A stretch of DNA of 64,000 nt from an uncultured Eubacteriales bacterium. Its GTDB lineage: Bacteria > Bacillota > Clostridia > Oscillospirales > Acutalibacteraceae. The DNA lies in assembly GCA_949292775.1 (NCBI GenBank), contig CASFBL010000002.1:146057-210056 (forward strand), read 5' to 3'. The position numbers were made by a program, and so were the translations under genes. The notes below the pieces were generated by a model, which was not told where the DNA came from, did not search any database, and saw only the letters and a list, made by a program, of their open reading frames with translations. Below, one piece after another: positions 9,244 through 64,000 of the stretch (its first letter is position 1; each line of letters opens with the position of its first letter).

Positions 9244-10463
9244 AGATTTTGCAGATTAACGCGGTCAATAAAATTGCAAGCACAGGCAGAACCACATCTG
9301 AAATGGCGGCTTTTTTACGAAATGCGGGTCACTCTTGCGTGGTAGCCTATTCTGTAGGACCGCAAGAAAACTCTAACTGGGAATATCAAATCGGTTCTAA
9401 AGCCGACGCAAAGCTGCACGGGCTTTTCTCCCGTATTTCCGGCAAACAGGGCTATTTTTCCATGCGCGCCACCCGAAAGCTGTTGGACTTTACAGACCGG
9501 TTTGCGCCGGATATTGTTGTTCTCCGTAATCTGCACGCAAATTACATCCATTTACCTATGCTTTTGCAGTATTTGGCACAAAAGAATATTGCAACGGTTG
9601 CCGTTTTGCACGACTGCTGGTTTTACACCGGAAAATGTTGCCACTATACCGTAGCGGGGTGTTACAAATGGCGTGAAAGCTGCGGAAATTGTCCGGCACT
9701 AAAAAAATATAATACAAGCTGGTTTTTTGACAAAACAGCAGAAATGCTGGCGGATAAAAAAGCGTTGTTCAGTGCAATTCCTCGGCTTGGTGTTGTCGGT
9801 GTATCCGACTGGTTGACAAATGAAGCCAAAAAAGCACCGGTATTTCAAAATGCTAAAGTGATTGAGAGAATCTACAACTGGGTCGATACCAAAACTTTTG
9901 CGCCGCATGAAACAACAGCGCTTCGGCAAAAGCTGAATTTGCAGGATAAAAAGGTGATTTTGTGTGTGGCGAGCGGCTGGACAAAAGACAAAGGGCTTGA
10001 TACTGTTTTGCAGCTTGCCGACCGACTTACTGATGAACAGCGGTTGCTTCTTGTCGGGTGCGTCCCGGAAGGCGTTGTTTTGAATAGCAATGTCCTCCAC
10101 ATTCCGCAAACACATAATATAGAAGAACTGGTTTCCTATTATTCCATGGCGGATGTGTTTTTTCAGCCGTCTCTGGAAGAAACATTCGGGAAAGTCTCGG
10201 CGGAAGCGCTTTCCTGCGGAACGCCGGTGGTGTGTTTTAACTCGACCGCGAACCCCGAACTTGTCGGGAAGGAATGCGGCGCCGTGGTGTCAATCGGCGA
10301 TGTGGATGCGCTTATAGAACAAATCGGCAACATTCTCGGAAACGGGAAAGATGCATATGTGAAGCCGTGTCGGGATTTTGCCTTGCAAAATTTCGACTTG
10401 GATAAGAATATGCAGCAATATATACGGCTGTTTGAAACTCTAACTCTATGCGAGAATAAATAG
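9240..10463 (+). CDS. Glycosyltransferase family 4, WcaC-like with Cys signature
   Basis: The 407-residue GT-B enzyme carries the cysteine-rich signature HDCWFYTGKCCHY, then CYKWRESCGNCPALKKY (about residues 122-156), seen in WcaC-like capsule/colanic acid transferases. The C-terminal domain has SLEETFGKVSAEALSCGTPV, an intact EX7E motif. It starts with TTG at 9240, overlapping the upstream stop, with AGGGGAGAAAAGG just before it. It transfers an activated sugar to the growing repeat unit on the cytoplasmic face. The four conserved Cys may bind a metal; this is inference from spacing. The donor is unknown. Confidence 0.87.
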   Translation: MKILQINAVNKIASTGRTTSEMAAFLRNAGHSCVVAYSVGPQENSNWEYQIGSKADAKLHGLFSRISGKQGYFSMRATRKLLDFTDRFAPDIVVLRNLHANYIHLPMLLQYLAQKNIATVAVLHDCWFYTGKCCHYTVAGCYKWRESCGNCPALKKYNTSWFFDKTAEMLADKKALFSAIPRLGVVGVSDWLTNEAKKAPVFQNAKVIERIYNWVDTKTFAPHETTALRQKLNLQDKKVILCVASGWTKDKGLDTVLQLADRLTDEQRLLLVGCVPEGVVLNSNVLHIPQTHNIEELVSYYSMADVFFQPSLEETFGKVSAEALSCGTPVVCFNSTANPELVGKECGAVVSIGDVDALIEQIGNILGNGKDAYVKPCRDFALQNFDLDKNMQQYIRLFETLTLCENK

Positions 10464-62966: not shown

Positions 62967-62995
62967 TTGACAGAAGCCTTCGTTTTTGCTAAAAT
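62967..62995 (+). promoter_or_regulatory. Strong sigma-A promoter facing the tRNA-like array
   Basis: TTGACA (62967-62972) and TAAAAT (62990-62995) are separated by 17 bases. Expected transcript start is near 63002, just before the tRNA-Ser-like repeats. No protein-coding gene lies downstream on this strand before the tRNA, so it probably drives the tRNA-Ser region. Confidence 0.72.
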
Positions 62996-63060
62996 ATTTT
63001 GGCAGTCTAAAGAACGGTGCAAACCTCTTCTGCATAAGTGAAAAAGAATATACGGAAGCG

Positions 63061-63260
63061 TATCGAAGTGGTCATAACGAGCCTGACTCGAAATCTTGCG
63101 GGGAGCTGTCCGTTTCGTCCACCAAAAACCTTGTAACCATGCGGGTTTTACACGGTTCGAAAATTGAATAAGTTTGCTGTTCTTTCCGTCAGTTCTTTCC
63201 AAAGCCCTTTTCTATCGAAAAAAGGTGGGAAAAAACGGCGGCTGAACATAGAGGGAGAGT
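63061..63260 (+). repeat. Tandem repeat unit 1, tRNA-Ser-like
   Basis: The first 200-base unit. It starts with a tRNA-Ser-like D-arm (TATCGAAGTGGTCATAACGA), then a CTCGAAA anticodon-loop-like motif (anticodon CGA) and a T-loop-like GGTTCGAAA about 70 bases on, too far for a normal tRNA. The anticodon stem does not pair. An acceptor-like GGAAGCG precedes it. The unit carries GTTCTTTCC-GTCA-GTTCTTTCC around 63179-63201. It looks like a degenerate tRNA plus spacer. Confidence 0.75.
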
Positions 63261-63460
63261 TATCGAAGTGGTCATAACGAGCCGCACTCGAAATCATACG
63301 GGGAGCTGTCCGTTTCGTCCAACCGAAACCTTGTAGCCATGCGGGTTTTACCCGGTTCGAAAATTGAATAAGCTTGCTGTTCTTTCCGTCAGTTCTTTCC
63401 AAAGCCTTTTTCTATCGAAAAAAAGCGAGGAAAAACGGCGGCTGAACATATAGGGAGCGG
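63261..63460 (+). repeat. Tandem repeat unit 2, tRNA-Ser-like
   Basis: Nearly identical to unit 1 over its full 200 bases. The D-arm-like start and CTCGAAA motif are kept, but the bases around the anticodon loop differ (CCGCA before, TCATACGG after), so again no anticodon stem forms. The T-loop-like CCCGGTTCGAAA and the double TTCTTTCC spacer are kept. An acceptor-like GGGAGAG precedes it. Confidence 0.75.
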
Positions 63461-63645
63461 TATCGAAGTGGTCATAACGGGCCTGACTCGAAAACGAATG
63501 CCCTTTTTGGAAGCTCACCTCTGAAAAACCTTGATTTTACGGGGTTTTTCGGCTATCATTGAAAAGTAAATATCCCTTAGTTCTCTCCATCAGTTCTCTC
63601 CTTTTTCCGAGATGTTTTTGAGGGCTGATGTGAAGATAAATACAC
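63461..63645 (+). repeat. Tandem repeat unit 3, diverged
   Basis: It begins TATCGAAGTGGTCATAACGG exactly 200 bases after unit 2, with CCTGACTCGAAAA, then diverges. It keeps AAACCTTG, a degenerate CGGGG-TTTT-CGG stretch and GTTCTCTCCATCAGTTCTCTCC ending at 63601, 140 bases from the start as in unit 1. So it is a length-conserved older copy, followed by the intact tRNA-Ser in the place of unit 4. No protein gene is supported in 62844-63645. Confidence 0.65.
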
Positions 63646-63733
63646 GGAGAGATGTCCGAGTGGTCGAAGGTGCGACTCTCGAAAAGTCGTGTTCCTAACG
63701 GAACCGTGGGTTCGAATCCCACTCTCTCCGCCA
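63646..63733 (+). tRNA. tRNA-Ser (anticodon CGA), reads UCG
   Basis: A complete tRNA-Ser with encoded CCA. Acceptor GGAGAGA (63646-63652) pairs with TCTCTCC (63723-63729), then G73 and CCA. The anticodon arm CGACT-CTCGAAA-AGTCG gives anticodon CGA; a long variable arm (GTTCC/GGAAC) is typical of class II serine tRNA; T-arm GTGGG-TTCGAAT-CCCAC is perfect. A terminator follows. An integrase gene lies just beyond its 3' end, suggesting it is an integration site. Confidence 0.95.
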
Positions 63734-63785: not shown

Positions 63786-63845
63786 CCACTCTGGAAAGAT
63801 TTTTCCGTAAGTTCTCTCCGTGATTTGAACTTAGGATATGTAGTT

Positions 63846-63879: not shown

Positions 63880-64000
63880 CTATGAAATAGCCTCTAATGC
63901 GCCACTCAGACCGTTTACCATTGCGTCAGCCGATGACAGCTTGGAATTGTAATCCAAATGGGCATATACATTTGCCGTAGTTGAAAAATCGCTGTGTCCG
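63880..64000 (-). CDS. Tyrosine recombinase (integrase), C-terminal end only
   Basis: Read on the minus strand from the right edge, 39 residues plus stop (TAG at 63880-63882) are visible. They begin GHSDFSTTANVYAHLDYNSK, the end of the catalytic domain of phage/ICE-type tyrosine recombinases: the box II Gly-His and the nucleophilic Tyr in NVYAHL. The rest of the gene lies outside the window. It points toward the tRNA-Ser 3' end, the usual layout when an element has integrated at a tRNA gene. Confidence 0.88.
   Translation of the reverse strand, partial: GHSDFSTTANVYAHLDYNSKLSSADAMVNGLSGALEAIS

Follow-up and report, generated by a model that had tools for sequence, protein, structure and literature searches.

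The question posed by the end of this contig is what event, or series of events, could have left three incomplete pieces of a tRNA gene lined up, at almost regular distances, in front of an intact gene for tRNA-Ser(CGA). All positions refer to the window, that is, the whole stretch of 64,000 nucleotides that was analysed, whose end is also the end of contig C2 of its genome (G000, the own genome in what follows). A sequence-only reading had described the locus as a four-unit array built on tRNA-Ser(CGA), and the array of three upstream units plus the intact gene proved to be real, as the cores, a repeat finder and TRF agree on it. The motif CTCGAAA, common to all the units as that reading had it, lies at 63087, 63287 and 63487, and at 63678 within the intact tRNA (spacing 200, 200 and 191); the repeat finder gives 90% identity over 200 nt between 63048–63247 and 63248–63447, and a third occurrence of a 46-nt stretch at 63448–63493; and the period found by TRF is 200.

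In each upstream unit the first 33 bases come from the 5′ half of a tRNA-Ser; the loop CTCGAAA follows, and after it 152–160 bp of non-tRNA DNA. The anticodon stem, which the earlier reading rightly held to be incapable of pairing in full in any of them, forms 3, 1 and 2 of its 5 pairs in units 1, 2 and 3, compared with 5/5 in the intact gene (63646–63733 by both ARAGORN and Rfam). The idea that the units are whole tRNAs that have decayed was rejected on these 1–3 pairs and because ARAGORN calls no tRNA in units 1–3 and the Rfam tRNA model finds no match there even at E ≤ 10. The covariance check had been named beforehand as one that could refute the tRNA origin of the array, and for the units it did turn out negative, the intact tRNA scoring 52.7 bits. 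The lack of a score is what is expected of 5′ halves that have no 3′ half.

The reading that we consider very probable is that the array is the left border of integrative elements that have nested serially in the anticodon loop of tRNA-Ser(CGA). What can be read directly in the DNA are the junctions at the core, the half-genes that match, the tRNAs borne by elements, and the recurrence of all this across genomes. The process would have followed a series of steps: (i) a tyrosine integrase would recombine the core CTCGAAA of the element with the anticodon loop of tRNA-Ser(CGA), which has the same sequence; (ii) the gene would thus be split, its 5′ half becoming joined to the left end of the element (attL) and its 3′ half being displaced to the right end (attR); (iii) the element would not rebuild the target gene, carrying instead a complete tRNA-Ser(CGA) just inside its left end, followed by the integrase gene, facing back; (iv) and finally, the carried tRNA would replace the broken gene and double as a new attB, and the next element would split this carried copy. 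As each carried copy could be split by the element that follows, left-end stubs would pile up with the oldest leftmost. In the window this would amount to three insertions, with stub 1 coming from the resident gene, stub 2 from an element A, stub 3 from an element B, and the intact tRNA from an element C. The integrase of this family would presumably be the agent of these insertions, and the replacement tRNA would presumably be expressed and important to the cell. The features of the array, in these terms, are the following.

62967–62995, plus strand: promoter-like TTGACA-17-TAAAAT, 11/12 consensus positions; a consensus match only, upstream of the stubs
63054–63093, plus strand: stub 1, cut at the core 63087–63093 and read as the 5′ half of the resident tRNA-Ser(CGA); fits the 3′ half on contig C18
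63094–63253, plus strand: putative left end (attL arm, "Y") of element A, the oldest; 94% to G025, 93% to G038
63254–63293, plus strand: stub 2, read as the split 5′ half of the replacement tRNA of element A; equal to the 5′ half of the element-borne tRNA of G037
63294–63453, plus strand: putative left end of the second element, B; 90–92% identity to the left ends of G025, G037 and G038
63454–63493, plus strand: stub 3, read as the split 5′ half of the replacement tRNA of element B; equal to the 5′ half in G001, G025 and G038
63494–63645, plus strand: putative left end of the third and newest element, C; 149/152 identity to the left end in L115
63646–63733, plus strand: intact tRNA-Ser(CGA), carried by element C; ARAGORN, Rfam 52.7 bits
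63742–63773, plus strand: terminator-like hairpin and T tract 3′ of the tRNA, 14 stem pairs
63811–63819, plus strand: extra arm-type repeat in the interval between tRNA and integrase, a single GTTCTYTCC copy
63880–64000, minus strand: C-terminal end of the putative integrase of element C (tyrosine recombinase), cut by the contig end; 84% to the G025 integrase over 31 aa

The G025 integrase belongs to PF00589 by Pfam. C2 ends 267 bp beyond the tRNA, so that no body of element A, B or C is visible on it; within the intact tRNA a fresh CTCGAAA target is present at 63678–63684. The site at 62967–62995 probably served the original resident tRNA-Ser(CGA) as its promoter, and read-through from it across the stubs might extend into the newest tRNA; a weaker promoter-like site (9/12 consensus positions) lies at 63531–63559.

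If stub 1 is the front of the resident gene, the remainder should be found elsewhere in the own genome, and a 3′ half, running from CTCGAAA to CCA, is situated at the end of contig C18 (G000:C18:41587–41642), where the DNA before the core is not tRNA and tRNA calling reports no tRNA. This half pairs with unit 1 at 7/7 acceptor and 5/5 anticodon-stem positions, as against 4+3 = 7/12 with unit 2 and 5+5 = 10/12 with unit 3. Joined to unit 1, whose 5′ half is one base off the resident gene of six relatives, it produces a tRNA-Ser(CGA) with 88/89 bases as in that resident gene; in addition, two genes upstream of unit 1 have 58% and 66% identity to genes upstream of the intact tRNA-Ser(CGA) of G035. 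From the pairing, the identity of the joined gene and the synteny it follows that unit 1 is the resident gene, split. Neither DNA nor pattern searches found a second intact tRNA-Ser(CGA) in the own genome, which also has a tRNA-Ser(TGA). Elements A and B presumably still lie between C2 and C18; a search of the own assembly yielded no 3′ half for either stub 2 or stub 3. A few hundred bases beyond the displaced half there is an ORF resembling, by eye, an IS200/IS605 transposase (G000:C18, L010).

The origin of the other two stubs becomes apparent among the relatives. A search with the array region through 39 genomes of the genus, the own genome included, gave matches in 26, many of them to the tRNA part alone. 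In several of these relatives an intact tRNA-Ser(CGA) is preceded by one or two 5′ stubs and followed by a reversed tyrosine integrase gene, and it is in such element-borne tRNAs, still intact, that the identical 5′ halves are found: that of unit 2 in G037, and that of unit 3 in G001, G025 and G038. Among the origins that the sequence-only reading had left open, scars of repeated integration at the anticodon loop is thus the one borne out, as distinct 5′ halves match distinct intact tRNAs and the border lies at the core.

The arrangement extends well beyond the genus. A scan with the G025 integrase across 84,980 species, each represented by a single genome, gave 210 relatives, in Clostridia, many of them Oscillospiraceae or Ruminococcaceae and some of them cultured strains, to judge from the record titles. 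Ruminococcus sp. zg-924, Flavonifractor sp. An10 and An82, and Pseudoruminococcus massiliensis are among the cultured carriers. The best 80 were kept, and in 71 of them the flank beyond the integrase reaches 330 bp or more, being too short in the other 9/80. Within these best 80 of the 210, an intact tRNA-Ser(CGA) adjoins the integrase in 60/71 loci by a strict rule, and stubs accompany it in 54 of the 60 (one in 44, two in 8, three in 2) and are lacking in 6. The nearest stub differs from the 5′ half of the intact gene by at least 2 of 33 bases in 46/54 loci. As for the remainder, three of the 71 loci (L145, L185, L187) have stubs only and are not intact by the strict rule, although ARAGORN calls an intact tRNA-Ser(CGA) in all three; another three have a 3′ half without an intact tRNA (L144, L154 and L190, in the last of which a stub and a stretch of Ns occur as well); and five have neither tRNA nor stub. 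In L144 and L154 it is the 3′ half, and not an intact tRNA, that stands beside the integrase, as would be expected of an outer element that has been interrupted.

A stub and the 3′ half displaced from it should also be recognizable as parts of one molecule. Pairing was scored over 12 positions (7 acceptor plus 5 anticodon stem, G-U allowed), and of the 21 3′ halves in the 18 genomes with both kinds of half, 19 reach 12/12 with a stub from the genome in which they lie, compared with 27/357 across genomes; none of 20000 label permutations reached the observed pairing sum. An unusual acceptor beginning with GC is common to stub and 3′ half in G052 and for one half of G042. The count covers neither G005 (half at a contig edge), nor G019 and G036 (halves, no stub found), nor G001, G002, G017 and G024 (stub, no 3′ half found), nor G033:C4 (a pattern match); nor does it cover the 9/20 genomes, G041 among them, in which the search for 3′ halves, made with an exact pattern on draft assemblies, found none, and one match in G058 was judged by eye not to be tRNA. 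Some cases do not fit: G042 has one 3′ half without a stub, G057 has two identical halves and one stub, the half of G043 pairs 11/12, and G041, where no 3′ half was found, has two intact copies. The solitary half of G042 (Flavonifractor sp. An10, G042:C8:396384, L218) has the acceptor CGTCTCC and no matching 5′ stub, and the stub of this genome pairs with the other half, 102 kb away at 480673.

Misfits of this sort lend some substance to the explanation that comes closest to ours, in which the elements would have integrated as proposed but later recombination between cores or spacers would have changed the number of stubs, which would then not equal the number of insertions. The G042 and G057 cases favor it, as does the single 3′ half found for three stubs in the window, and as does mosaicism: the spacer of unit 1 is closest to that of G025 (94%) and the tRNA it leads to is of the G037 type (88%), so that the type of spacer is not cleanly linked to the allele of the tRNA and the elements must be mosaic. 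For the window itself, however, the three stubs have distinct 5′ halves, each matching a distinct intact tRNA, and this alternative is unlikely there, if the most serious of those considered.

Serial nesting of entire elements, the reading we prefer, is best followed where an element is closed on a single contig. This is the case in G049, G050 and G043, with a stub, an intact tRNA, and a 3′ half located 19–25 kb from the stub. G056 goes further, since one contig there contains two stubs, an intact tRNA, 26 kb, and then a 3′ half, whose pairing is complete (12/12) with the inner stub but reaches only 4/7 acceptor and 4/5 anticodon-stem positions with the outer one; directly after this half come pieces of a second integrase (48% and 59% to that of G025). 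This is the layout expected if an inner element had split the tRNA carried by an outer one; no partner of the outer stub was found on its contig. It could be argued that the stubs are minimal cassettes of 200 bp that moved alone, with an integrase acting in trans, rather than the left ends of full elements that were later split, given that the three units of the window stand head to tail with no body between them. But the closed cases have 19–25 kb, with genes, between stub and 3′ half, the 3′ halves pair with stubs, and in G056 the split replacement tRNA of the outer element flanks the inner one, which makes independent cassettes highly improbable.

The non-tRNA DNA that follows each core, or spacer, provides a further line of evidence. 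The spacer of unit 3 is the same as that of L115 at 149/152 bases, the 5′ halves preceding them differ, and the identity begins right after the core, from which it follows that the border lies at the core. Across the loci, 66 successive core-to-core distances measure 179–214 bp, and the spacers form 24 families with a common core before each; the period of the array is thus the near-constant distance from the left border of an element to the anticodon of its carried tRNA. It was claimed earlier that all units share their spacer, which does not apply to unit 3, only 40–43% identical to the spacers of units 1–2 in a MAFFT alignment; laxer pairwise scoring raises this to 62%, a scoring under which unrelated spacers are also near 60%. 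Units 1 and 2 are indeed alike, as had been claimed (90%, and 91% in their spacers), although this likeness is no greater than that between spacers of different species of the genus and could be due to independent arrivals of related elements, with no need for duplication.

Herein lies the difficulty for the scenario, put forward by the sequence-only reading, in which a single tRNA unit was duplicated in tandem and the copies then decayed, gene conversion having preserved the likeness of units 1 and 2. The 90% identity over 200 nt of two units that are exactly 200 bp apart would agree with it. Nevertheless, the units are 5′ halves joined to left ends of elements, and not decayed copies; the 5′ halves differ, each matching a different intact tRNA of relatives; unit 1 is closer in its spacer to G025 and G038 (94% and 93%) than to unit 2; of the 12 pairs of successive spacers in 10 further arrays with several stubs, 11 have no more than 57–77% identity, about the level of unrelated spacers under the same scoring, and one reaches 86%; and the border at the core, with a nearly identical unit 3 spacer behind another 5′ half in L115, contradicts it. 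Duplication and conversion of this kind therefore retain next to no credence, and we give just as little to the suggestion that the units have been retained as tRNA-like RNAs with some other function. No evidence was found for this: the good conservation of the 5′ halves and the promoter-like site ahead of them would speak in its favor, but no unit obtains a tRNA covariance score, the stub of G001 is decaying, and the conservation is explained by recent descent from intact tRNAs.

The left ends also contain what an integrase of this class would be expected to need. The doubled repeat that had been noticed in the spacers is present in all three units, as GTTCTYTCC pairs at 63179/63192, 63379/63392 and 63580/63593 (+92/+105 from the core in units 1 and 2, +93/+106 in unit 3), with the single copy at 63811. 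In G043, G049, G050 and G056, copies of GTTCTTTCC, scanned with one mismatch allowed, occur 91–92 and 104–105 bases from the start of the core, and the right ends of these four and of G025 (of which the part on C7 was covered) have two or three copies within about 200 bp, against a density of 0.18–0.53 per 900 bp in the middle parts of the elements. Repeats placed in this way at both ends would suit an integrase of the lambda type that binds arm sites. Many left ends also have, by eye, an inverted repeat, AAAACC...GGGTTTT, short and imperfect, some 30–60 nt past the core (63524–63549, for example), possibly an accessory site or a weak terminator.

With regard to what these elements are, a Pfam scan covered some of the ORFs of five elements of relatives, the element C of the window being cut by the contig end. 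Mobilisation genes are present in all five: a PF03432 relaxase in G033:C11, G033:C9 and G050, and NikA/MobC in G025 and G043, with no relaxase among the scanned proteins of these two. G025, G050 and G043 contain the PF00589 integrase as well as ParB and AAA_25, and among the cargo are proteins of the GmrSD and Abi types and a DNA methylase that occurs with a Z1 protein. No phage structural families were found among the scanned proteins of the five. The best matches to the G025 integrase in phage records are unannotated faecal contigs (52–56% identity), viral contigs hold 7 distant relatives (21–38%), and the best match in plasmids is 39.5%. The cargo varies from one element to another and looks defence-like (G025:C7, L043; G043:C34, L226; G050:C1, L228), with dnd-like genes recognized by eye. 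In G033:C11 (L105), at 9814–9965, there is an attP-like junction in the order right end, CTCGAAA, left end, intact tRNA and integrase, which could be either an excised circle or a tandem copy; as a closed circle, this contig gave no terminal overlap at the nine lengths tested. Contigs break at, or within about 500 bp of, the tRNA or a stub in G000, G004, G020, G021, G023 and G025, as would be expected if the content of elements varies within the sampled population.

The proposed mechanism matches the tRNA-dependent lysogeny described for actinobacteriophages (Guerrero-Bustamante and Hatfull, 2024, PMC10865867), with mobilisable elements in place of phages and with serial use of the site. The phages, too, have a tyrosine integrase, putative arm-type sites, and a short core in a tRNA gene (about 10 bp in common) that is not rebuilt; likewise, attB is here in a host tRNA gene with a short core, and no tRNA is rebuilt at attL or attR. 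They differ in that the phages use the mycobacterial tRNA-Lys and their requirement for it was shown by experiment (PMC10865867), whereas the present elements belong to Clostridia, have mobilisation genes and use tRNA-Ser(CGA); in addition, the carried tRNA occupies a near-constant place inside attL, and its serial use as attB is visible in the genomes. The temperate phage that is the carrier in tRNA-dependent lysogeny proper was not seen among the scanned proteins of the five elements of relatives. The Lj965 prophage of Lactobacillus johnsonii, cited in PMC10865867, also leaves the tRNA without rebuilding and has a cognate tRNA, although it is a phage and the passage on it there mentions no serial array. 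A prophage-related case in Sinorhizobium is discussed in PMC11476347.

Islander-type islands, as PMC4383910 describes them, have in common with the window a tyrosine integrase, a crossover in the anticodon loop, a displaced 3′ fragment, and possible tandem arrays; but classical islands restore their target with a carried tRNA fragment, and Islander depends on targets restored in this way, whereas in the window the gene at the junction is broken and a whole second gene is carried. No restored tRNA appears at a junction here, where 1–3 of 5 stem pairs form. Descent from such a classical element was also considered, with the start of the spacer as a decayed relic of a 3′ tRNA half, and is not supported (z < 2 in 23/24 families; z 3.0 for L184). 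Integrative and mobilizable elements (IMEs; PMC5704250) also join an integrase to mobilisation genes and accrete in site-specific tandems, although their target is kept whole by a repeat containing the gene end, whereas that of the window is disrupted and replaced.

Among the papers that searches of an open-access library listed, none was recognized as a description of elements of this kind outside phages, or of arrays of stubs. In PMC10865867, the reuse of a plasmid tRNA as attB for a second plasmid is a speculation, and the spread of tRNA-dependent lysogeny outside actinobacteriophages is said to need study. In the usual description, site-specific islands restore the tRNA gene that they target; the present family, found across gut Clostridia, would replace the gene instead. 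It would thus carry tRNA-dependent integration over from phages to elements that have mobilisation genes. If we accept serial nesting, the ordered stubs would be a relative clock of the arrivals of elements and a handle by which to search for them, and would bear on the question, posed in the same paper, of how tRNA-replacing integration is related to tRNA-restoring integration. We lean towards a broader view, in which the tRNA-Ser(CGA) gene would be a self-renewing docking site: the tRNA that reads UCG would be repeatedly replaced by horizontal arrivals, the host would come to depend on its newest element, islands with varied and partly defence-type cargo would stack there, and the left-end stubs would be a time-ordered record of the arrivals, readable from short sequences.

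Finally, the site may be shared with a second, perhaps gene-restoring, type of element, since element-like genes come after an intact resident gene in G036, in which a 3′ half is found on another contig; not all elements at the site need follow the course proposed above. The second type may consist of classical elements that have this target in common and restore its tRNA. For the same reason, G033, with two stubs on C9 and two halves on C1, was dropped as a proof of nesting by count: a Fic-like gene, recognized by eye, starts the body between the halves and is like the one beside the intact tRNA in G036 and G021, and this body perhaps belongs to a tRNA-restoring element. In G036:C28 and C17 (L094, L101) and in G021:C20 (L057), the Fic-like gene (by eye) and other genes of the second type come directly after an intact tRNA-Ser(CGA), and in G033:C1 (L096, L097) second-type genes come after a 3′ half rather than an intact tRNA; Pfam assigns a similar gene in L105 to Fic.
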